Of a stretch of DNA of 64,000 bases, positions 37 through 10,946 are shown one piece after another. The DNA comes from Candidatus Eisenbacteria bacterium (GTDB lineage Bacteria; Desulfobacterota; Binatia; DP-6): positions 1 to 64,000 of the forward strand of contig DATJZY010000052.1 of assembly GCA_035577985.1 (NCBI GenBank), read 5' to 3'. Numbering within the stretch: position 1 is the first letter of the stretch; the number at the start of each line of letters is the position of its first letter. Below the pieces are notes generated by a model. That model was given only the letters and a program-made list of their open reading frames with translations. It was not told where the DNA came from and did not search any database. The position numbers were made by a program, and so were the translations under genes.

Positions 37-1686
37 CTACTCGAAGTCCTCGTTGAGCGAGCGCAGGAAGGCCGCCAGCGGCGCGACGTCTTCGGCACGG
101 AGGGCGACACCGGCGAGGGCCTTCGCGCCGTTGCGCACGCGCTTCGCGCGCGCGAGATCGCCCATGCGGCGATAGAAGGCGACGACGTCGTCCAGCGTGT
201 CTTGCGCCCCGGTGTGCAGATAGGGCGCCGAGTGGCCGAGATCGCGCAACGACGGCGTCTTGAACAACGCCACGGCGCCGGCGAGAAGGCGCGCCGCCTG
301 CCGCCGGCCGCGCCGACACGGCGCGATGGCATTGGCCTTGCAGATCATCTGCGCCATCGCCGCCTGTTGCGAAGCGTCGGGCACGTCGGGATTGGCGAAG
401 GTGTTCCAGAGGCCCAGGTCCGTGCGTCCCGGCTGCGCGGCCGACGGCACCGCACGAAACGGGCCGGCGGCGTCGGGATACGAGGCGCTCGGCGGGAGAT
501 AGGCGGCGGGATCGGCGTTGCGTTCGGCGAGGTCCGGAATGTGAAGGGCGGCGAACGCGCCGTCCCCGTGGATGGCATCGTATTCGTCCTGCGCGGCACC
601 AGTGGCGTGGAACGCGAAGTCCGTGAAGACCGGCGGCGGGTGACAGGCGACGCAATTGCCGGTGCCCGGCTGGGCGGCCCTGCCATGCCCTCGGCGTAGG
701 AACAGGCGCAGCCCGGCCAGCTCCTCGGCACCGAACACGAATGGGAGCGGGTGCAACGCGAAATGGCCGTCGGCCTCGGTGACGAACGCGGGCGCCGCAA
801 GCCGATCGACGAGGCGTCCGAGCCGGCGCGCGTACGCCATGTCCGACTCGCGCGCCCGCGGCGCACGCGGGAGACCGTTCTTGGCCAGGAACACGTCGTA
901 CGGCGACGCCGTGAAGGCCCCGTCCGCATCGCGTGCCGCCACCAGCGACGTCATGTATGCGGCCATGAACGCGGCGATGGCGTCGACGATCTCCTCGTCG
1001 CTGGCATGGGCGACGTCGAGCGTCATGCTCGTCGGCACCGGACGGTTGGTCGGAAAGAGCGGATCGGTGCCGCGAAAGGCGCCGGCGTACGTCGCACCGC
1101 CGAAGCTCTGCGCCAGGGCACCGCGGCCGTCGTCCTCGCGGATCACGCGGGCGATGTGGGCGACGGCAGCGGCACGCTCGGTTGGCAGCCAGCCGAAATT
1201 GCGCCCGGTGAGCGTCGCCCGCACCAGCGCCTGCGCGGACGGGAACTCGCCGTCGAAGTGCAGGAAGAAGGGGCCGGGGCGTGCGAGGTTGGCGTCGAGC
1301 AGCGCCTGCGAGTTGCGCACCGTGAGCGTTTGGCCGTCGCCGCGATCGGGGATCGGGCTACGGCGGGCGAAGTCCGCGTAGGCGCGCCCGCCGCCGCCCT
1401 CCCGGCCTTTCTGCTCGACGTCGAGATGGCAGGCGCGGCAGTTCATCGACTGTCCGACGAAGGGTCCGGGCAGTGCCACCGTCGTCGTGACGGTCGCGTC
1501 CATGACGGGATCGCCCGCCGCGAGGGTGTCGTTCACACCGGTCGCATGCGCGGCGAAGAACTGGGCGAAGCGCGTCTCGTCGAAGAGGCGGTTGCCGAGC
1601 AGGACCTCGGGCGGGTTGCCGAACACCGGGTCGGCGAGGGCGCGGCCGCACATGGCGAGTCCCAGCACGACGAGGAGCGCGCGCAT
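37..1686 (-). CDS. MauG/cytochrome c peroxidase-type di-heme enzyme
   Basis: Exported 549-residue protein with a signal peptide (residues 1-18, cut after RALA). Two CxxCH haem-binding motifs lie at residues 83-87 and 345-349, the arrangement of bacterial di-heme cytochrome c peroxidases and MauG. The C-terminal part carries the family-typical FKTPSLRDLGHSAPYLHTG segment. Known members reduce peroxide or oxidise Trp/Tyr residues of partner proteins in the periplasm. The ATG at 1686 was chosen because it gives the signal peptide and overlaps the preceding stop as TGATG, implying translational coupling with the secreted protein upstream; a longer open frame reaching 2286 is only antisense-like noise. 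At about 550 residues it is longer than simple peroxidases (about 330-350), as are many MauG-like proteins. Substrate unknown; the neighbouring secreted proteins are candidates. Confidence 0.85.
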   Translation of the reverse strand: MRALLVVLGLAMCGRALADPVFGNPPEVLLGNRLFDETRFAQFFAAHATGVNDTLAAGDPVMDATVTTTVALPGPFVGQSMNCRACHLDVEQKGREGGGGRAYADFARRSPIPDRGDGQTLTVRNSQALLDANLARPGPFFLHFDGEFPSAQALVRATLTGRNFGWLPTERAAAVAHIARVIREDDGRGALAQSFGGATYAGAFRGTDPLFPTNRPVPTSMTLDVAHASDEEIVDAIAAFMAAYMTSLVAARDADGAFTASPYDVFLAKNGLPRAPRARESDMAYARRLGRLVDRLAAPAFVTEADGHFALHPLPFVFGAEELAGLRLFLRRGHGRAAQPGTGNCVACHPPPVFTDFAFHATGAAQDEYDAIHGDGAFAALHIPDLAERNADPAAYLPPSASYPDAAGPFRAVPSAAQPGRTDLGLWNTFANPDVPDASQQAAMAQMICKANAIAPCRRGRRQAARLLAGAVALFKTPSLRDLGHSAPYLHTGAQDTLDDVVAFYRRMGDLARAKRVRNGAKALAGVALRAEDVAPLAAFLRSLNEDFE

Positions 1687-2714
1687 CAGCTGCGCCCTTC
1701 TTCCTCGCCCGAGGTGCGAAACACGCAAGGAAACAGGTCGCGCAGGGACGTGCCCTTGGCGCTGAGCGCCTTCAGGTACGTCTGGGCGCGGAAGTACGAC
1801 GCCGACGCGGTCTCCTGCGCGCGGCATTGGGCCAGCGTGAGGTGTTGCGAGATCTCGTCGGCGGTGAAGTCCTTCGATCCCTTCGCGCCGCAGGCCTTCT
1901 CGATGGCGGCCGCGGCGCGCGTGCGGAGGCGGGCGAGCTTCTCCACCATCGGCACGCACACGCGACCCGCGGCCGCGCTCGCGGCGTCGACGTTCCGCGA
2001 CGCGACCAGCTGTGCGCGCACCGTCACGAGGCGGTCGAGGCACCGCCGGAGCGCGCCATACGTGGCGTGGATGTAGGGATCGACCGCCTTGCCGACCGCC
2101 CGCTGACAATCGGCGCTCGCGCGATCGAACGTATCGGCGGCGAAGTCCACCGGCGGGAGGTGTCCGTTGGTGAGCTTCAGCGTGTACGTGCGCGACGCCG
2201 TGTAGTCGGGCAATGTCGACGTCAGGCGGAAGGCGATCTCGCCGTCGGCGAACGTGCCAGGCGGACCGTCGACGAAGAGCAGCCACTCCGGATGGTGATG
2301 GAGATCTCCGGGCGGCTGGCCGCCCGCCGTGCCCAGCACCACCGTGTCGCCCGGCTTCGACAGGGTCACGCCGTTCAGCTTCATGGCCGTGCGGCCGCCG
2401 TCGTTGTCGACCAGCTCGACGCTGATCTCCACGCCCGGCGGAAAGACGTGGTACTGGACGCCGTCCAGGAACTCGTCGCCGTCCGCGGCGTCGAAGCCCG
2501 GGTTGGTGCCGCTGTAGACGCTGGTCGTCCCGATGCCGAAGCTGAACGCGAGCGGGGCGACGGTCGTGTCGAACTCGTACGCGATGATGAGCTCGTTGCC
2601 GCCGCCGGGCGGCGTGCTCATCAGAAAATCGGTGACGTGATGCGCGGCGGCGGGGCCGACCCTGACGCCGAGCGAAGCCACGAGCATTCCCACGATCACG
2701 AGCAGGCGGCGCAT
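1686..2714 (-). CDS. Exported beta-rich protein, paralogue A of three
   Basis: 342-residue protein with a signal peptide (residues 1-24, ending PAAA). An N-terminal beta-rich half contains a conserved LHHHPEW motif at residues 138-144, then a segment ending TLKLTNGHLPPVDF. The same order of motifs occurs in the next two genes, so the three are tandem paralogues. The C-terminal half (about residues 195-342) is helical with paired cysteines, like paralogue C. A GAGGAGG ribosome-binding site precedes the ATG at 2714. The stop overlaps the start of the di-heme enzyme by one base. I do not recognise a named family. The His-rich motif suggests metal binding, and the operon suggests work with the di-heme enzyme, but both are inferences. 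Confidence 0.75.
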   Translation of the reverse strand: MRRLLVIVGMLVASLGVRVGPAAAHHVTDFLMSTPPGGGNELIIAYEFDTTVAPLAFSFGIGTTSVYSGTNPGFDAADGDEFLDGVQYHVFPPGVEISVELVDNDGGRTAMKLNGVTLSKPGDTVVLGTAGGQPPGDLHHHPEWLLFVDGPPGTFADGEIAFRLTSTLPDYTASRTYTLKLTNGHLPPVDFAADTFDRASADCQRAVGKAVDPYIHATYGALRRCLDRLVTVRAQLVASRNVDAASAAAGRVCVPMVEKLARLRTRAAAAIEKACGAKGSKDFTADEISQHLTLAQCRAQETASASYFRAQTYLKALSAKGTSLRDLFPCVFRTSGEEEGRS

Positions 2715-2727
2715 ACGGGTATCCTCC

Positions 2728-3771
2728 TCACGGTGCGCATGCCGCGGGCGGCGCGGCGTTGTCGGCGCGGAACGATTTGCCGGGCGAGTACGAAACGGTG
2801 CCGCCGAAATGGAGACACGCGCGCTCCGCGCCCAGCGCGAGCGCGACGTCCACGGGTTCCGGATCGCCGGCGAGCGAATGCTTCAGCCCCGCGCCGCGCC
2901 CCTGGACGCGCACGAGTCCGCCGAACGTCCAGACGATGGAGCGAATGGCGCCGCGGCGGTCCTTGTAGCGGTAACCACGCAGCGTCCCATGCTTGCGCAG
3001 TGGCTTCCAGCGCGATGCGGGCAGCTCGTGACGGCCCTCGAAGCTGTTGGCGGCGTTCGAGAGGATGCGGAGCTGTCCGCCGGTGACCGTCGGATCCGTG
3101 GACGCCGGATCGAAGGCGTCGCCGAACGTGAGCGTCATGGCCTTCTTCGCCGCATTGCTCGGCGACGCGCGGAGCAGCAGCGTCGTGCCGGCCACGAGAC
3201 GGTCATTGGTCGCAGGCGGCAGCGTCGTGGTCGTGGTCTCGCCGTCCCCGCATCCGTCGCTGCCGGCGACGGTGGTGATCGTGAAGCGGTAGATCGGCGA
3301 GTCGTCGTAGGCGGTGGCGCCGGTGTGCAACGAGAGCTGGAGGTGGAACTCGCCGCCCTGGCCCTCGGGCAGCAGCAGGCGCCACTCCGGGTGCAGATGA
3401 ACGTCCGGAACGTTGCCGATGAGGGCCATGCTGCCGGGAGCGTCGAGCACCGTGGAGCCGACCTTCAGCGTGACGCCGGGATCGACGGCGCGCAGCACCA
3501 CTTCGATCGGCGTCGTATCGCGCAAGACGTAGATCGAGCCCGGCCGACTCACGGCGAGCGCATTGAAGCCGGGCTGGGTCGACGTCCACCGCGTGAGCCC
3601 GTCGACCGTCAGGCTCTCGGTCACCACCACGGGGCGGCAGAAGTCGTACGCCATCCGAAGCGCGCCCGACCCTTGCGCGCTCGAGCCGATGAACATGTCG
3701 ACGTCGATCGGTTGCGCGGCGGCGGCACGAGCGAGAAGCGCCACGCCGATGAACGCGATCAATCGATTCAT
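2728..3771 (-). CDS. Exported beta-rich protein, paralogue B of three
   Basis: 347-residue exported protein; the start at 3771 was chosen because it gives a clean signal peptide (residues 1-19, ending ARAAAA) and a four-base ATGA overlap with the upstream gene. It shares DMFIGSSAQGSGALRM with the N-terminus of paralogue C and has the VHLHPEW motif at residues 124-130. A GDGETTTTTLPPA linker joins the first domain to a different C-terminal beta-rich domain of about 140 residues, replacing the helical cysteine domain of paralogues A and C. Such Thr/Pro linkers are common in exported proteins of deltaproteobacteria-like lineages. Function unknown. Confidence 0.75.
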   Translation of the reverse strand: MNRLIAFIGVALLARAAAAQPIDVDMFIGSSAQGSGALRMAYDFCRPVVVTESLTVDGLTRWTSTQPGFNALAVSRPGSIYVLRDTTPIEVVLRAVDPGVTLKVGSTVLDAPGSMALIGNVPDVHLHPEWRLLLPEGQGGEFHLQLSLHTGATAYDDSPIYRFTITTVAGSDGCGDGETTTTTLPPATNDRLVAGTTLLLRASPSNAAKKAMTLTFGDAFDPASTDPTVTGGQLRILSNAANSFEGRHELPASRWKPLRKHGTLRGYRYKDRRGAIRSIVWTFGGLVRVQGRGAGLKHSLAGDPEPVDVALALGAERACLHFGGTVSYSPGKSFRADNAAPPAACAP

Positions 3772-5069
3772 TCCGCACCTCCCACGAGACAGCCGAAATA
3801 GGTGGAGAGTGGTCTCCCGCCCTGCGACCACCGCGCCCGTCGCTCTGCGAGATCGTTCCGGGCGGTGGCGAATCCGGCCGAGACGATCTCGTCGGCCATG
3901 CAGCCGACGTCATTGAGGAACCGACGACGCCCCGCGGTGCCGAGCGTGTCCTCGTTGCATCCGAGGCGGATGGCGCGCGCGGCACGGCGGCGGCGACCCT
4001 CGATGATGCCGAGCATCGTCTGCGTGTCGGGTCGTTGGCTTTCCCCTGCGCAGCGAGCATCGGCGCGGATGCTGGCGACTCGCTGGCGTCGCGCCGCCTG
4101 CGCGAGCAGGCGAGCCCGTTGCATGGGATCGGTGGTCGGGATCGGCAGCGCCGCGGTCGCTTCCGTGGCGTGGAGCCGCTGCACCGCCAACAGACACGCA
4201 GTGAGACGTCGCGTGCGCATGACCCCGTATTCCGAACCCTGTTCGGCCATCGCGGAGCCGCAGCTCGACTGCCGCGGTGTGATGGCGTCGCCCACGAGCG
4301 CGGCCGTACGCTGCACGATCAAATCGAGATAGGAGCGCAGCCGCCGCTCGTCGTAGTCGTTCGACCCGGCCGCACCGCACACGGCCAGCAGCGTCGCCGT
4401 GGTCGCATCGCGGGCGTTCGTAATGGCCGGATCGTCGGGAACGGCGCCGTCCGCGGCCGCCTGCCACACTGCCGCGAGGAAGCGCGGAGTCTCGCGTGCG
4501 AGGGTACGATAACAATCGAGCGCCGCCGCGTCGAATCTGAGCGGCGACAGGTCGGCCGGCGGGAGGTACCCGTTGCTCAGCCGGAGCGTGTAGGCGGGCG
4601 ACGGCAGGTATCCCGGGGCATGCAGACGGAACGAGAACCGGCCCTCGCTGAAGGCGCTCTGCGTGCGATCGACGAGCAGCAGGTATTCCGGATCGCGATG
4701 CAGGGCATGCCGACCGCGATGACGACCGAGCAATGCACGTGCGCCCGGGACGGTCAGCAGCACGTGGCGAACCTTCAGCGACACGTGGCCGCCGTCGAGG
4801 TCGAGCGCCTCGATCCACACCGGCGTTCCTGCGCGGAGTGGATACGCCCCGAACGGACGAACAAGCCCCTCGAACCCCGGCTCGGTCGCCGTATAGAGAT
4901 CGAAGTTGCCCAGCGTATCGCTGAAGCTGACGCGCGCCGTCGTGTGACGCCCCATGCGCACGACGAGCGCACCGCCGTCTTCGGCGGACGAGCCAACAAG
5001 AAGATCTGCCTGGACCACGCGCACTGCGCAGCCCAGCGTGAGCCAGACGACTGCCACGAAACGCCTCAT
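3768..5069 (-). CDS. Exported beta-rich protein, paralogue C of three
   Basis: 433-residue protein with a signal peptide (residues 1-21) and the first gene of the operon. The beta-rich N-terminal domain carries ALHRDPEYLLLVD from residue 122, where Tyr replaces the Trp of paralogues A and B, and then a YTLRLSNGYLPPADLS segment nearly identical to A. The C-terminal half is helical and Cys/Arg-rich (at least nine cysteines including the signal region), a longer version of the domain in A. A GGAG ribosome-binding site precedes the ATG at 5069. Its stop overlaps the next start by four bases. No named family recognised. Confidence 0.75.
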   Translation of the reverse strand: MRRFVAVVWLTLGCAVRVVQADLLVGSSAEDGGALVVRMGRHTTARVSFSDTLGNFDLYTATEPGFEGLVRPFGAYPLRAGTPVWIEALDLDGGHVSLKVRHVLLTVPGARALLGRHRGRHALHRDPEYLLLVDRTQSAFSEGRFSFRLHAPGYLPSPAYTLRLSNGYLPPADLSPLRFDAAALDCYRTLARETPRFLAAVWQAAADGAVPDDPAITNARDATTATLLAVCGAAGSNDYDERRLRSYLDLIVQRTAALVGDAITPRQSSCGSAMAEQGSEYGVMRTRRLTACLLAVQRLHATEATAALPIPTTDPMQRARLLAQAARRQRVASIRADARCAGESQRPDTQTMLGIIEGRRRRAARAIRLGCNEDTLGTAGRRRFLNDVGCMADEIVSAGFATARNDLAERRARWSQGGRPLSTYFGCLVGGAE

Positions 5070-5198
5070 CGCAATCTCCGACCTGCCGACCGCGGAGCGG
5101 TCTGCAGGCGCACCAATGGTAGGAAGACCAGGGTGGCGGGCGCTCGCGCGCCGAGGATTCCCGCGGGACGACGCGCCTACTGGAGGCGGCCGGCGGGA

Positions 5199-5504
5199 TC
5201 AGGCGACGAGCGCTGTGGAGAGGAGGGGCGGGGCGCGTCCGGAGCGGACGGAGGCAGGGGCGGCGAGGACGTCGCGAGCGGCGACGCACTCGATCGCCTG
5301 CACGAGCGGCACGACCATCGGTGCGACCACCGCGAGAGCCACTGTGCCCGAGCAATGATACGCCGCGACGCAGGTGGCGCAGCTCTTCGAGTGGTCGGCG
5401 ACGTGCTTGTACTCATGCGTGTCGGTGACGAGCGGAGCGATCGTCAGGAGCGCGACTACTGCCGCAGTGAGGAGACGACTTGCGCGTTGACGACCGCTCG
5501 ACAT
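5199..5504 (-). CDS. Small membrane protein with His and Cys pairs
   Basis: 101-residue protein. It has an N-terminal hydrophobic segment (about residues 11-25), then THEYKHVADH followed by CATC and an isolated HC pair, then a second hydrophobic stretch (about 55-72) and a polar tail. The His/Cys pattern is like the DUF2946-type small metal-related membrane proteins found beside copper genes, but the match is only by eye. Its place upstream of the exported paralogue operon, on the same strand and 129 bases away, would suit a metal-handling role. Confidence 0.55.
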   Translation of the reverse strand: MSSGRQRASRLLTAAVVALLTIAPLVTDTHEYKHVADHSKSCATCVAAYHCSGTVALAVVAPMVVPLVQAIECVAARDVLAAPASVRSGRAPPLLSTALVA

Positions 5505-5578: not shown

Positions 5579-6664
5579 TCAGATGCGCTTGGGCTTCGTG
5601 ACGGTTGCCGATGGCCGCAGCGGCGCCGCGCGCCCGACGTGCCACCCGTCCCGAAGGTCGATGTAGGCTCGATCGAGACGGTCGCGCGGCAGGCACCCGG
5701 CACGGCTGCGGACTGCGGGTTCCATGACGGCCACTGCCTGCGTGTGCACGGGGGCTGTCGGCACGGGCGCGCTCGCCGTGCCGGTCAGGGCGGGCATGGT
5801 CGTGCCACGGAAGGCATTGCCGCTGAGGTACACGGGGCCGCTGTCGACGAGCCGCAAGCCCGAGTCGGATTTTCCCCCCGCCTTGCGTGCGTACGGGGAG
5901 AGGACGAAGAGCGAGTCGACCACGTTGCCCGATGCCCCGTCCGAAAAGCGGCTCCCCCACTCGCCCCAGTCCTCGACGATCACGTTGCGCAGATCGGCGA
6001 CCATGGGGCCGAAGAACAGCGGGCTGCGGATCCATCCCTTCTGCAGCCACGAATGGTGCACCGACACGTGCGTGGTCTCGCCATACTTGCAAAAGAGCGA
6101 ACGCGTGTTGCCCGCGAGGAAGCTCCACGCGACCGTGACGTCGTGCGCGCCATAGCCGATCGAGATGCCGTCGTCGGCCGCGCCGGTCGAAGAGACGTGG
6201 CTCACGAGGACGTTGGCCGCTTCGGATCCCTGGATGCGCAGGTTGTCGTAGCCGTTGCGAAGACGCAGGTCGCGTACGACCACGTCGTGCGTGCGGATGT
6301 CGAGCAACGCGACGTCCTTGGCGAGATTGCTGCCGTCCAGCGTCCCGCCGTTTCCCTCGACGGTGACGAAGGGCGCCGTCAGATACGGGAGCGGTCGGAC
6401 GATCGCGATCGGCGCGGACACGGCGAACCGGATCGTGACGTGCCCGGTCTGATTCGCGTCGACGAGCGCGCGACGGAGCGCGTTCTCCGTCGGTGCGTCG
6501 ACCACGATCCGACGTCCGCCCGCGCCACCCTTGGTCCCGCTGCCAAAACCCTCCGTTCGCTCGCTCGTGGCTCGAGGCGCGGGAACGCGTGCGCGCGCGA
6601 ATGAACGCGAGCACGCGGCGAGGATGAGAGCGATGCACAGCCACAGGATGGTCGCCGGTCGCAT
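5579..6664 (-). CDS. Pectate-lyase-like right-handed beta-helix lipoprotein
   Basis: 361-residue protein with a lipoprotein signal (LILAAC, Cys at about residue 18), so it is probably anchored in the outer membrane facing the periplasm or outside. The body is a series of short beta turns typical of the pectate lyase superfamily, with the PL1-like run SSTGAADDGISIGYGAHDV followed by VTVAWSFL. PL1 enzymes cleave polygalacturonate by beta-elimination, but the substrate cannot be read from the sequence and related beta-helix proteins act on other uronic polymers. The ATG at 6664 was chosen because it gives the lipoprotein signal. Confidence 0.7.
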   Translation of the reverse strand: MRPATILWLCIALILAACSRSFARARVPAPRATSERTEGFGSGTKGGAGGRRIVVDAPTENALRRALVDANQTGHVTIRFAVSAPIAIVRPLPYLTAPFVTVEGNGGTLDGSNLAKDVALLDIRTHDVVVRDLRLRNGYDNLRIQGSEAANVLVSHVSSTGAADDGISIGYGAHDVTVAWSFLAGNTRSLFCKYGETTHVSVHHSWLQKGWIRSPLFFGPMVADLRNVIVEDWGEWGSRFSDGASGNVVDSLFVLSPYARKAGGKSDSGLRLVDSGPVYLSGNAFRGTTMPALTGTASAPVPTAPVHTQAVAVMEPAVRSRAGCLPRDRLDRAYIDLRDGWHVGRAAPLRPSATVTKPKRI

Positions 6665-6693: not shown

Positions 6694-7296
6694 TCAGCCC
6701 GAGGCCCGCCGCCCGATCGAGGCGAAGAGCTCCCGCATCACCTCCCGGGCGGCGACCACGTCGGCCTGGCTGCCGATGAGCTCGCTGCGGAGCGGCACGG
6801 GCTTGGTGGGGCGCCGCACCTCCCAAACGGTCTTCCCGGTCGTGGGATCGACCAGCATCGCGTCGAGGGAGGCGATGATCTCGTTCGTGCGCAGCGTGGG
6901 ATATGCGAACTCCCAGCGGCGGACTCGAATGAAAAGCGCGGTCGCGTCGAGCTTGGCGGCAGCGACGATCTCCGCCGCCGCCTCCGGGCTCGCGGGTACG
7001 CGTCCCCCGGTGGATGCCTCCAGGACGCCGGGATCGACCACCTGGAGCCCATCCTGCGCGAGCTCCTCGCGAGCCGCGGCGGCAAGGATGGCGCCGAGGC
7101 CCTCCACGGGCGCGCCATAGCTCGTGACCAGCGCGCCCTGCGCGAGCGGCGCGCCCGAAGCATCACATGGCGGCAAGACGGCGATACGGCGGACGCTGCT
7201 CGGCGGCGGCGCAAGGCGCGGCGCGCAGGCGAACGTCCCGGCAAGCGCGCCCAGCAGCGGAATCAATGCGAGCGACCGATCTCTGGTCGGCACCAT
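6694..7296 (-). CDS. Putative lipoprotein of the envelope, LpoB/GNA1162-like
   Basis: 200-residue protein with an N-terminal hydrophobic segment ending GTFAC, a possible lipidation site. The body has alternating strands and helices: RRIAVLPPCDASG, then ALVTSYGAPVEGLGAILA, then LDATALFIRVRRWEF and AMLVDPTTGKTVWEVR. This pattern is found in small outer-membrane lipoproteins of the DUF799/GNA1162 and LpoB type, which bind envelope partners. It is followed 29 bases later by the beta-helix lipoprotein on the same strand. Exact family not certain. Confidence 0.6.
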   Translation of the reverse strand: MVPTRDRSLALIPLLGALAGTFACAPRLAPPPSSVRRIAVLPPCDASGAPLAQGALVTSYGAPVEGLGAILAAAAREELAQDGLQVVDPGVLEASTGGRVPASPEAAAEIVAAAKLDATALFIRVRRWEFAYPTLRTNEIIASLDAMLVDPTTGKTVWEVRRPTKPVPLRSELIGSQADVVAAREVMRELFASIGRRASG

Positions 7297-7388: not shown

Positions 7389-7736
7389 ATGGAGCAGCAC
7401 CACACCCACGACGGACACGACCATCCGCACCGGGCCGGTTGCGGACACACGGAGATCCGCCACGGCGACCACACCGACTACCTCCACGACGGACATCTGC
7501 ATCGCGTACACGGCGATCACGTCGATGAGTGTGCGGTCGCGGTCGGGGCGACGAACCCGGCGGCGTGCACGCCCAAGCACGCATGCGGAGGACACGACGC
7601 GTCCCATGCCCACGGCGCCGGGTGTGGCCATGACGCCATCCCGCATGCCGAGCATACGGACTACGTCGTGGCGGGACATCTGCATCATCCTCATGGCGGG
7701 CACTGCGACGACCACGGCGCCGTGAACGTGCTCTGA
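7389..7736 (+). CDS. His-rich metal-binding protein with a tandem repeat
   Basis: 115-residue protein with roughly a quarter histidine and no signal peptide. It consists of two repeats of about 45 residues, each with the order AGCGH...H..HTDY....GHLH..HG.H, starting near residues 15 and 75. Such His-rich small proteins bind zinc or related metals and often sit beside zinc transport genes. A GGGAGGG ribosome-binding site precedes the ATG. It is divergent from the lipoprotein gene at 7296, with 92 bases between. It may store or buffer metal in the cytoplasm. Confidence 0.7.
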   Translation: MEQHHTHDGHDHPHRAGCGHTEIRHGDHTDYLHDGHLHRVHGDHVDECAVAVGATNPAACTPKHACGGHDASHAHGAGCGHDAIPHAEHTDYVVAGHLHHPHGGHCDDHGAVNVL

Positions 7737-8095
7737 CTACGGTTGCGGCCCGCAGACGATCTCGGCGAGACGATCCGTCCAAACCCAGCGGCGAAACGCG
7801 GACTGCACATCGTGTTCGCGTCGAGCTCGAGGTACGTCTCGGCGGCGCGCACGGGCTCGTCCAGGGGCAGGCCGTCCTCCACGCGCTCGAGGACCTCGTC
7901 CACCCCTTCCTGGCCGCCGGCGTCTCGAGAGGCCGGGTGCGTTGCGAACGTGGCCGTAGACGCTGACCGTGCGGCTCACGGTCTCCGGCTGGATCAGCAC
8001 GCGCAGCCCGTTCGGCAACGTGACGTCGACCGGTCGGACCACGGACGCCGGTACCGCAGCAGGCCGGAGCACGTCGGCGGCCCAGCCCGGAAGCG
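7737..8095 (-). pseudogene. Remnant of an M16-family zinc peptidase
   Basis: On the minus strand the phrase VDVTLPNGLRVLIQPETVS followed by TVSVYGHVRN is diagnostic of M16 peptidase C-terminal halves. It is followed, in another frame, by GVDEVLERV and, back in the first frame, by AFRRWVWTDRLAEIVCGPQP, the usual C-terminal end. The catalytic HxxEH region is absent. At least two frameshifts and an internal deletion show that this is a relic. It ends at the stop of the His-rich gene on the other strand. Confidence 0.6.
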
Positions 8096-8124
8096 TCGTG
8101 CGTCCGGCGTGCTCCGGGGGCGAC

Positions 8125-8517
8125 GTCCGGACACTGCGGGAGGTCGTCGAGCTGTACGGCCGCGGCGGCAACGTGGCGCCCATCCAGGGGCTCGACGGAA
8201 CACCGATCGAGCCGCTCGGGGTGCCGTCACTCGCGCCCGACGAGATCGATGCGATCGTCGCGTTCCTCGAATCGCTCACCGACGAGCGCGTGCCGTCGCA
8301 ACGCGCGCCGTTCGACCATCCGCAGCTCTTCGTACCGAACGGCCATCCAGGGAACTCGGCATGGACGATCGACACCGACCTCGATGGCCGCGCGGACGAT
8401 CGGATGGTCGAGATCCCGGCGGTCGGCGCCGCGGGCGGCGCGCCGCTGCCGGGCTTCCTGGAGGGGGTCTTCGGCCCGTCGAGCGACGCTTGGTCGAGCT
8501 CGTCCGACGACTCGTGA
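8125..8517 (+). pseudogene. C-terminal remnant of a di-heme cytochrome c peroxidase
   Basis: The frame reads VRTLREVVELYGRGGN, then IEPLGVPSLAPDEIDAIVAF and a tail with DHPQLFVPNGHPG. This is the standard C-terminus of bacterial di-heme peroxidases. Neither CxxCH motif is present, so the gene has lost its N-terminal two thirds. The relic abuts the M16 relic on the opposite strand at about 8100. It is a second MauG-family trace in the window besides the intact gene at 37-1686. Confidence 0.65.
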
Positions 8518-8999: not shown

Positions 9000-9287
9000 T
9001 CATGCGGACTCCGCGGCGTCATCGTCCGGCCCCTCGACGATGGCGGCGATCTCGGTATCGAGGTCGCGGAGCACCCCCTTCAAGCGCGTCGTGAGTCGGC
9101 CACGACGCTGCCAGACCTTCTGGTGATCCTTCGTTTCCTGCACATCGAGATCGCCCAGGTCCTCCGCGATCCGCTTCGCCTCCTGGAAGCGCTGCGCGCA
9201 GGTTTCTGACGTGATGTACTTGTAGAGCCGCCCCATCTTCACGGCTCGCTCCTTCATGCTGAGACCCTGAATGTGCATGCGTACCGT
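9000..9287 (-). pseudogene. C-terminal fragment of an unidentified coiled protein
   Basis: This forms the last 95 codons of an open frame whose first part is GroEL. It reads [18 protein letters not shown] and then [20 protein letters not shown], ending at a stop at 9000. It is not GroEL. It resembles, by eye only, the C-terminal helical region of DUF2130-type proteins. The frame is continuous with the GroEL fragment, so the junction at about 9287 is a deletion fusion. Confidence 0.4.
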
Positions 9288-9990
9288 TCTTCTATCGCCA
9301 CGCCCGATAATGGTCGTGTTCTCCTTCGTGATCACGATGCGATCGGCACGACCCAGGTCGGCGAGCGTCACGTGCTCGAGCTTCTGCCCCAGCTCTTCTG
9401 CGAGCACCCGGCCCCCGGTGAGGATCGCCATGTCCTCGAGCATCGCCTTCCGCCGGTCGCCGAAGCCGGGCGACTTGACCGCGACGGCCGTGAGCGTGCC
9501 GCGGAGCTTGTTCACCACGAGCGTGGCGAGCGCTTCGCCCTCGACCTCCTCGGCGACGATGAGGAGCGGGCGCCCAGACTTCACGATCTGCTCGAGCAGC
9601 GGCAGCAGATCCCGCATCATCGCGATCTTCTTCTCGTGCAGCAGGACGTACGGCTCCTCGAGCACGCACTCCATGCGCTCCGCGTCCGTGATGAAGTACG
9701 GCGAGAGATAGCCGCGGTCGAACTGCATCCCCTGCACCACCTCCAGCGCCGTCTCGGTCGCCTTCGCCTCCTCGACGGTGATGACGCCCTCGCTGCCGAC
9801 CTTGTCGACGGCTCCGCGACGATCGCGCCCATCCGCGCATCGTTGTGGGCCGAGATCGTCGCGACCTGCTCGCGCTCGCGATGCCCGGCGAGCGGTCGCG
9901 AGATGCCCTTGACGGCAGCGGTGGCGACGGCGACCCCGCGGATGCACGCGCTCGATCACGTGACGCGATTGCGCCGATACAGCGCGTCGG
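9288..9990 (-). pseudogene. groEL: groEL fragment, truncated at both ends and frameshifted
   Basis: The minus strand encodes the GroEL stretch from about residue 130 to 285: [18 protein letters not shown], then [42 protein letters not shown]-like and [20 protein letters not shown], ending [10 protein letters not shown] frameshift at about 9815 separates the first part from the rest. The ATP-binding N-terminus and the equatorial C-terminus are missing, so no chaperonin can be made. The fragment is fused in frame to an unrelated tail at 9287. Confidence 0.85.
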
Positions 9991-10002
9991 TGGTGACGAG
10001 CA

Positions 10003-10946
10003 CCGGCGAGGCGGACTGGCCGGATGCCGCGCGCATCCATCGCTACGCCAAGGGGCTCGCCGGCACGCCGCCCGACCGGCGGGCCTCCGCGCGCTTTCCG
10101 CAGTGGATGTGGCGCAACAACGAGGTCCTCCTTCGTCGAGTGGCTGCGCGAATGGAACGCGTCGACGATCCGTGCCCATACCGGGTTCTACGGCCTCGAC
10201 CTCTACAGCCTCTACCGTTCGATTCGTCTTGTTCTCGAGTATCTCGACCGTGTCGATCCCGCTGCCGCCCGGACGGCGCGCGAGCGCTACGGCGGCCTCA
10301 TGACGTGGGAAGGAGATCCCGCGACCTACGGGCGCGCGGTCGTGACCGGCTCGTATCGCGCCCATGAGCGCGAGGTGGTGGCGATGCTGCGCGACGTGCT
10401 GGCCCGCGAGGTCGACTACGCGGCACGCGACGGCGAGCATTTCCTCGACGCGGCTGGCAACGCGCGCGTCGTCGCGAATGCCGAAGCCTACTATCGCGTG
10501 ATGTACTACGGCGGGAGCGCATCCTGGAACCTCCGCGATCAACACATGTTCGAGACGCTCGAGGCCCTGCTCCGCTTTCACGGCCCGAACTCCAAGGCCG
10601 TCCTCTGGGAGCACAACTCGCACCTCGGCGATGCGGCGGCGACCGAGATGGGCGTCCGGGGCGAGCTGAACGTCGGGCATCTCTGCCGGCAGCGGTTCGG
10701 CGACTCCGGAATCCCCGACGCCGCGAGATCCGGGACGAGCTCGTCTCGCCGCGGCTCGAGCGCGCGATCGGCGTCGTCTATCACCCCGATACGGAGATGC
10801 AGAGCCATTACTTTCACGCCGCGCTTCCCCACCGGTTCGACGAATGGATCTGGTTCGACGAGACGCGCGCGGTACGCCCCGTCAGTGACGCCGAGGCGCG
10901 CATCCTTCCGCGCACCCACCCCTTCGCGCCGTACGGGCGGCCGTGA
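10003..10946 (+). pseudogene. Erythromycin-esterase-family pseudogene
   Basis: Three reading frames together give a protein of the erythromycin esterase family: [16 protein letters not shown] and [12 protein letters not shown] in the first frame, then [20 protein letters not shown] through TWEGDPATYGRAV and VLWEHNSHLGDAAATEMG in the second, and finally ELVSPRLERAIGVVYHPDTE and EWIWFDETRAV in the third, ending at the TGA at 10944. Frameshifts lie near 10130 and 10715, and a stretch before the last part is deleted. The start is also missing, where the GroEL relic begins. Confidence 0.75.

Follow-up and report, generated by a model that had tools for sequence, protein, structure and literature searches.

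CruR of Bordetella (BP2923) carries a CXXC motif and a RAPP motif 45 residues apart, acts as a copper sensor while still a nascent chain, with control over the downstream genes (PMC9426467). The genes under CruR control in Bordetella are on when the metal is scarce. CutF of Rhodobacter has a related mode of action (PMC9426467, PMC9973294), and CruR-related leaders head copper operons, some of which include MbnPH-like genes (PMC9426467). The MbnP–MbnH pair (TIGR04052 and TIGR04039) consists of an exported partner and a two-haem enzyme of the MauG superfamily. On the zinc side, ZepA is a Zur-repressed exoprotein with an Ig-like domain and the motif H-x(2-9)-H-F/Y-H that mediates zinc uptake in Anabaena (PMC10957091). 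The locus described here is an operon in which a CruR-like leader precedes three exported paralogues of an unnamed family and a two-haem enzyme.

Organization of the Operon

The window analysed is a stretch of 64,000 nucleotides (contig DATJZY010000052.1 of assembly GCA_035577985.1) from a genome of 5.7 Mb (G000), and coordinates are positions in this window unless another locus is named. The operon and the two genes upstream of it are organized as follows.

6694–7296, minus strand: GNA1162-like lipoprotein, upstream of the operon (homologue flanks the leader locus L227)
5579–6664, minus strand: beta-helix-like protein, upstream of the operon (homologue flanks L227)
5199–5504, minus strand: cruR-like leader ORF, 101 aa, first gene of the operon (ORF inspection and motif scan)
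5070–5198, minus strand: intergenic region between the leader and gene C, 129 bases, GC-rich and strongly folded (folding z = -2.9)
3768–5069, minus strand: paralogue C, 433 aa, N-terminal beta-sandwich domain with LHRDPEY and a Cys-containing C-terminal region (sequence, profile)
2728–3771, minus strand: paralogue B, 347 aa, domain with VHLHPEW, a TTTTLPP linker and a second region without a recognised fold (sequence, profile)
1686–2714, minus strand: paralogue A, 342 aa, domain with LHHHPEW and a Cys-containing C-terminal region (sequence, profile, structure model with pLDDT 91.8)
37–1686, minus strand: two-haem enzyme of the MauG/cytochrome c peroxidase superfamily, 549 aa, with C83xxC86H87, C345xxC348H349 and Tyr505 (haem motifs, alignment)

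The genes and coordinates given in the original prediction hold, as do the spacings (a 4-base overlap of C and B, a 13-base gap between B and A, and a 1-base overlap of A and the enzyme gene) and the assignment to a single minus-strand operon, which carries no transporter gene. A nearby His/Cys membrane protein had been taken to fit metal biology, and as a CruR-type leader it does so, but it had been left out of the operon of which it is the first gene (5504–5199). Export signals were judged by eye to be present in C, B, A and the two-haem enzyme. The claim of three exported paralogues is borne out by searches of the G000 genome, in which A as query retrieves C (1.5e-26) and B (7.7e-6), and in which a profile built from six members gives 1e-55 or better for each of the three and detects three more copies on contig C127. 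None of A, B, C and the enzyme reaches any Pfam or NCBIfam cut-off; A, B and C have no meaningful match there, including no match to the MbnP profile (TIGR04052, cut-off 140 bits). The home-made gene caller sometimes chose the wrong strand (it missed gene B and the two-haem enzyme gene of locus L079), and the counts of family members, haem proteins and leaders given below come from six-frame ORFs. Elsewhere in the window, a gene at 9000–10040 on the minus strand matches only part of the chaperonin (Cpn60) profile and is possibly broken or frameshifted.

The Leader Gene

The leader ORF (5504–5199, MSSGRQRASRLLTAAVVALLTIAPLVTDTHEYKHVADHSKSCATC...SGRAPPLLSTALVA) starts at 5504, lies on the same strand as the rest of the operon and is separated by the 129 bases from gene C. 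It encodes a hydrophobic export or membrane segment (LLTAAVVALLTIAPLV, identified by inspection and by the hydrophobicity filter of the scan described below), followed by HEYKHVADH, CATC, 44 residues, RAPP, eight residues and a stop. With CruR and CutF it shares the small size and export of the protein, a C-terminal proline motif (RAPP in CruR), a distance of 44–45 residues between the cysteine motif and the proline motif, and the position as first gene of an operon. The cysteine motif is CxxC as in CruR, whereas CutF has CxxxC, and the gap to the next gene is long both here and in Bordetella (129 and 162 bases). Unlike the leaders of the CruR and CutF operons it heads an exported beta-sandwich family rather than a TonB receptor or an oxidase, an extra conserved His stands ahead of the CxxC, and its relatives often have RGPP and match the Pfam model weakly or not at all. 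The window's leader protein has no match to that model, DUF2946 (PF11162), which is the only family matched by more than one leader relative (13 of 26 aligned relatives, all below the cut-off). Because no match reaches the PF11162 cut-off, the leader is termed CruR-like by its architecture and is not called a member of DUF2946.

A scan of 713 kb of loci for ORFs with a hydrophobic start, CxxC, R[AGS]PP and an early stop, allowing any spacing of 5–120 residues between CxxC and R[AGS]PP, returned 30 ORFs in which the spacing was only 43–47 residues, and the same scan on reversed sequence and on shuffles returned 0 ORFs. In the alignment of these leaders one His, both Cys, the R and both P are invariant. 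Twenty-three of the 30 ORFs lie on the same strand as, and within about 720 bases upstream of, a gene for the domain shared by A, B and C, often with one leader per paralogue; this number includes one identical copy in a sister bin (L055/L087). At the level of sequence, the leader architecture and its recurrence ahead of the family can be called solid.

A switch in which a stem-loop covers the gene C start until a ribosome stalled at RAPP opens it was considered and rejected: in the folding model the stalled ribosome leaves the start of gene C unexposed, and a CutF-type stem-loop switch is therefore not supported here.

Distribution, Conservation, and Fold of the Family

The family was sampled in 193 related genomes, from which 40 regions were fetched; two with weak or unrelated matches were dropped, and the window and C127 were added to give 40 loci. 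The domain is present in 22 of the 193 genomes, usually in tandem copies, and of 395 genomes sampled evenly across the phylum only three have it, all from the window's class. Some family members are, by eye, lipoproteins. Conservation across about 79 aligned domains is seen at a position close to the mature N-terminus (His in 51 of 71 and Asp in 11) and in the segments G-G-G-x-L, P-G-F and H-x-H-[P/G]-x-[W/Y/F], with the first His of the HxH present in 75 and the second in 70 of 79. The aromatic position that follows is W in 48, Y in 16 and F in 10 of the 79, and so varies in a way that the Trp/Tyr first described as invariant should not. The other motifs proposed for the three paralogues were largely recovered (PGF in A, B and C, HPEW in A and B, HRDPEY in C, and YTLxLxNGxLPP in A and C); GSS...GAL is found in B and C but not in A, which has STPPGGGNEL.

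The domain of A is modelled with high confidence as a beta-sandwich. Fold searches with this domain (Foldseek, VIA-align) yielded no clear solved relative; all that they retrieved were common sandwiches of Ig-like and pilin-like type (best Z 7.6), and MbnP and ZepA did not appear among the matches listed, an absence that excludes neither. A, B and C belong to an unnamed beta-sandwich family. Its resemblance to All3515/ZepA lies in the exported Ig-like beta-sandwich and the zinc-uptake neighbours; it differs in having HxHPxW in place of the ZepA zinc motif, which is absent from A, B and C on inspection, and in that a leader peptide rather than a Zur site is seen. The All3515/ZepA profile (NF040463, cut-off 75 bits) matches 17 of 76 members weakly, the best at 3.1e-5 and below the cut-off; member 1 has no match, and there is none in G000. 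Since the ZepA zinc motif is absent, the family is at most a distant relative of All3515/ZepA. A relation to the TIGR03769/choice-of-anchor M surface repeat of metal-ABC systems, suggested by an HxHxxW motif, is unsupported: in G000 neither a cut-off match to TIGR03769 nor any match to NF038134 was found.

The closest homologue of A (54% identity) is encoded in the sister genome G001, where it adjoins the orthologue of the two-haem enzyme. The G001 operon holds five paralogues and two leaders, with the enzyme orthologue at its end, and the aromatic positions of its paralogues are W, W, W, F and M. Many family loci carry no leader ORF in the scan, including that of the three further paralogues on C127 of G000 (L014, 2961–11568; HQHPQW, HVHVTW and HQHPQW), where a haem enzyme is also absent. 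An outer-membrane-type protein that begins with CDICAVY is encoded amid these paralogues, and it recurs near the family in five genomes.

Metal-Related Neighbourhoods

A ZnuD-like receptor, a Fur-family regulator and an AztA-like ABC ATPase are each found near the family in five genomes, and one genome (G068) has a Fur-type gene, a leader and a ZnuD-like receptor in a row. Besides the window's leader, a single ORF of this type was found in G000 (C127:56053–56331), and it heads genes for a substrate-binding protein, an ATPase and a permease, with AztC, AztA and AztB as best matches, beside a ZupT-like gene. The flanks of this locus (L227) share two gene families with the window, the lipoprotein (39–41% identity, 1e-25) and the beta-helix protein (30%, 1e-13), and a fused MFS/spermidine-synthase-like gene at the locus is found again next to the family in three other genomes. 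On the copper side, copper is what the tested leaders respond to, and the domain is found together with MbnP, which is annotated as copper-binding. The evidence for zinc and for copper conflicts; the metal would be one of the two, with a slight lean towards zinc. A role in metal handling, as originally proposed, gains support from the CruR-type leader, the metal-uptake neighbours and the conserved His positions.

A very His-rich protein of 115 aa (GHTEIRHGDHTDYLHDGHLH) is encoded on the plus strand of the window at 7389–7736, and a homologue with 46% identity is found in another family locus (L081).

The Two-Haem Enzyme

The fourth gene had been assigned to a two-haem enzyme of the MauG superfamily, and its two CxxCH sites (C83–H87 and C345–H349), which are invariant in eight homologues, agree with this. 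Tyr505 is invariant in the same comparison and aligns with MauG residue 294 (profile 467–504 against MauG 261–298, equal lengths), the axial Tyr ligand of MauG. The match to CCP_MauG (PF03150) has an E-value of 0.001 and 20.1 bits, below the gathering score of 25.6, and the enzyme is therefore described as a distant member of the MauG superfamily by its haem motifs and C-terminal alignment only. The match to MbnH (TIGR04039; 3e-10) reaches 39.5 bits and is far below the cut-off of 362.85. With the structures of MauG (3L4M) and MbnH (6E1C) the enzyme shares the two CxxCH motifs, a PYxHxG segment and the Tyr at the MauG 294 position, but only its second-haem region aligns (profile 467–541), the N-terminal half is unmatched and large insertions set it apart from MbnH; true MbnH is matched by 6E1C at 2.8e-97. 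The structure model of the enzyme is of low confidence (pLDDT 49).

This type of enzyme occurs at only two of the 40 family loci, the window and G001 (orthologue with 64–65% identity). It is widespread elsewhere, and none of the 80 loci kept from Nitrospira, Nitrosomonas, Gammaproteobacteria and others contains the family, MbnP or the leader. Forty-one of 66 long loci among them share a recurrent gene group that is porin-like by eye, and a 55% paralogue of the enzyme in G000 adjoins a porin-like gene (L013:10666–12312 and L006:3155–4180, G000:C94). A two-haem gene of some kind, representing at least three different kinds, is present at eight of the 40 family loci. The original prediction had named as counting against it a finding that the paralogues are rarely beside MauG-type genes, and the two of 40 loci for the window's enzyme type, the 0 of 80 for the family and the eight of 40 for any two-haem gene go half way towards this.

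One of these other kinds is a large enzyme encoded between two family genes in G080 (L079:3523–5436). The last ~140 residues of an ORF on the plus strand of the window (7969–8517) resemble, by eye, the C-terminal end of this G080 enzyme, as a remnant of a second two-haem enzyme would.

Links to MbnP and MbnH

A protein of 598 aa in G045 (P0011) is, at 466 bits (cut-off 363), a true MbnH with the family domain at its C-terminus, aligning with A at 2e-13, and is encoded beside a true MbnP. In G051 the domain forms the C-terminal part of a true MbnP (273 bits against a cut-off of 140). Neither fused domain has the full HxHPxW motif (HSDAET and HADMQA), and with the motif degenerate in both they may act otherwise than A, B and C. 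The gene order domain lipoprotein, MbnP, MbnH is found in three genomes of one genus (G038, G057 and G081), an MbnP–MbnH fusion of 654 aa with both halves above the NCBIfam cut-offs lies near two family genes in G036 (L062:13322–15283), and on contig C55 of G045 (L068:3777–9129) MbnP and a domain lipoprotein directly precede FeoB. Above the cut-off, true MbnH was counted at 24 places, spread over 21 of the 193 genomes, and five of these places are near the family. By our estimate this is well above chance (on the order of 1e-3, with the clusters covering ~1–2% of the genome), even with the genus counted once. The family and its fusions to MbnH and MbnP are solid findings at the sequence level.

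The G051 fusion gene (L070:6981–8516) follows a TonB receptor and precedes a gene for a TroA-like ABC substrate-binding protein. On G045:C55, FeoB, the one gene of its group that was tested, is accompanied by apparent FeoA, Bfd and bacterioferritin genes.

Discussion

The locus is best read as a leader-controlled transition-metal (zinc or copper) operon of exported, putatively metal-binding proteins with the two-haem enzyme as an accessory, a reading that we consider probable although far from assured. As the leader is built like known copper-sensing leaders, the operon is most likely zinc- or copper-responsive and would serve acquisition or handling of the metal. The leader would be a CruR/CutF-like nascent peptide that binds metal through the CxxC and the nearby His, and its pausing at RAPP may control expression of the downstream genes, in one direction or the other. 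A, B and C would bind metal at a site formed by the N-terminal His or Asp and the HxHPxW motif and could help to capture or buffer it outside the cytoplasm, and the enzyme may act on the redox state of the metal or perhaps on paralogue A. An ordinary duplication of envelope proteins, with a coincidental leader and with beta-sandwich proteins that are structural or adhesive and whose His residues have no metal role, would fit the common Ig-like and pilin-like folds to which the searches led; the leader recurs ahead of family genes in many genomes, and with the metal-uptake neighbours and the conserved HxH this makes such an origin very improbable.

The part played by the enzyme is less certain. 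It may be a passenger from a porin-associated haem-peroxidase system that acts independently, on peroxide or on the redox state of metal ions, while the leader and A, B and C form the metal module. This possibility deserves serious weight even if we do not think it the likelier one, and since it concerns the enzyme only it is compatible with the favoured explanation for the remaining genes. The widespread homologues never found with the family, MbnP or the leader, the porin-like gene group common to many of their loci and the paralogue beside a porin-like gene in the same genome all speak for it, whereas the A and enzyme genes overlap and are kept as a pair in G001, which points to some functional coupling. 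That coupling could also be of the kind first proposed, an analogue of MbnP–MbnH in which the Trp or Tyr beside the His pair in A, B and C, once oxidised by the enzyme, completes a metal (copper) site. The analogy itself drew unexpected support from the occurrence of the domain in fusions with true MbnH and with true MbnP and from the loci shared with them, and the MbnPH-like genes in CruR-headed operons elsewhere (PMC9426467), the retention of enzyme and A together in G001 and the alignment of Tyr505 point the same way. A, B and C have no MbnP match, the enzyme scores far below the MbnH cut-off, both fused domains lack the full motif, and 38 of the 40 family loci are without this enzyme type. 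The more specific claim of three substrates oxidised at an invariant Trp/Tyr fared poorly: the family and the enzyme are rarely together, and Phe or Met stands at the aromatic position in two of the five G001 paralogues. Oxidation of Trp or Tyr by a putative action of the haem enzyme is possible, and the complete analogue is, in our view, unlikely. Slightly less doubtful, though still a speculative proposal, is that systems of the MbnP–MbnH type have a third, so far unrecognised component in the HxHPxW domain, a metal carrier that would be modified or loaded by several independent kinds of two-haem enzyme under a metal-sensing nascent leader peptide.

CruR-type leaders are known to head copper operons; here the same architecture repeatedly stands ahead of an unnamed exported family, and in the window's genome another such leader stands ahead of a zinc-type ABC transporter. 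If confirmed, this would extend nascent-peptide metal sensing to a new set of genes and possibly to a second metal, and the MbnH and MbnP proteins fused to the domain offer a direct, testable handle on the still poorly understood MbnP–MbnH systems.
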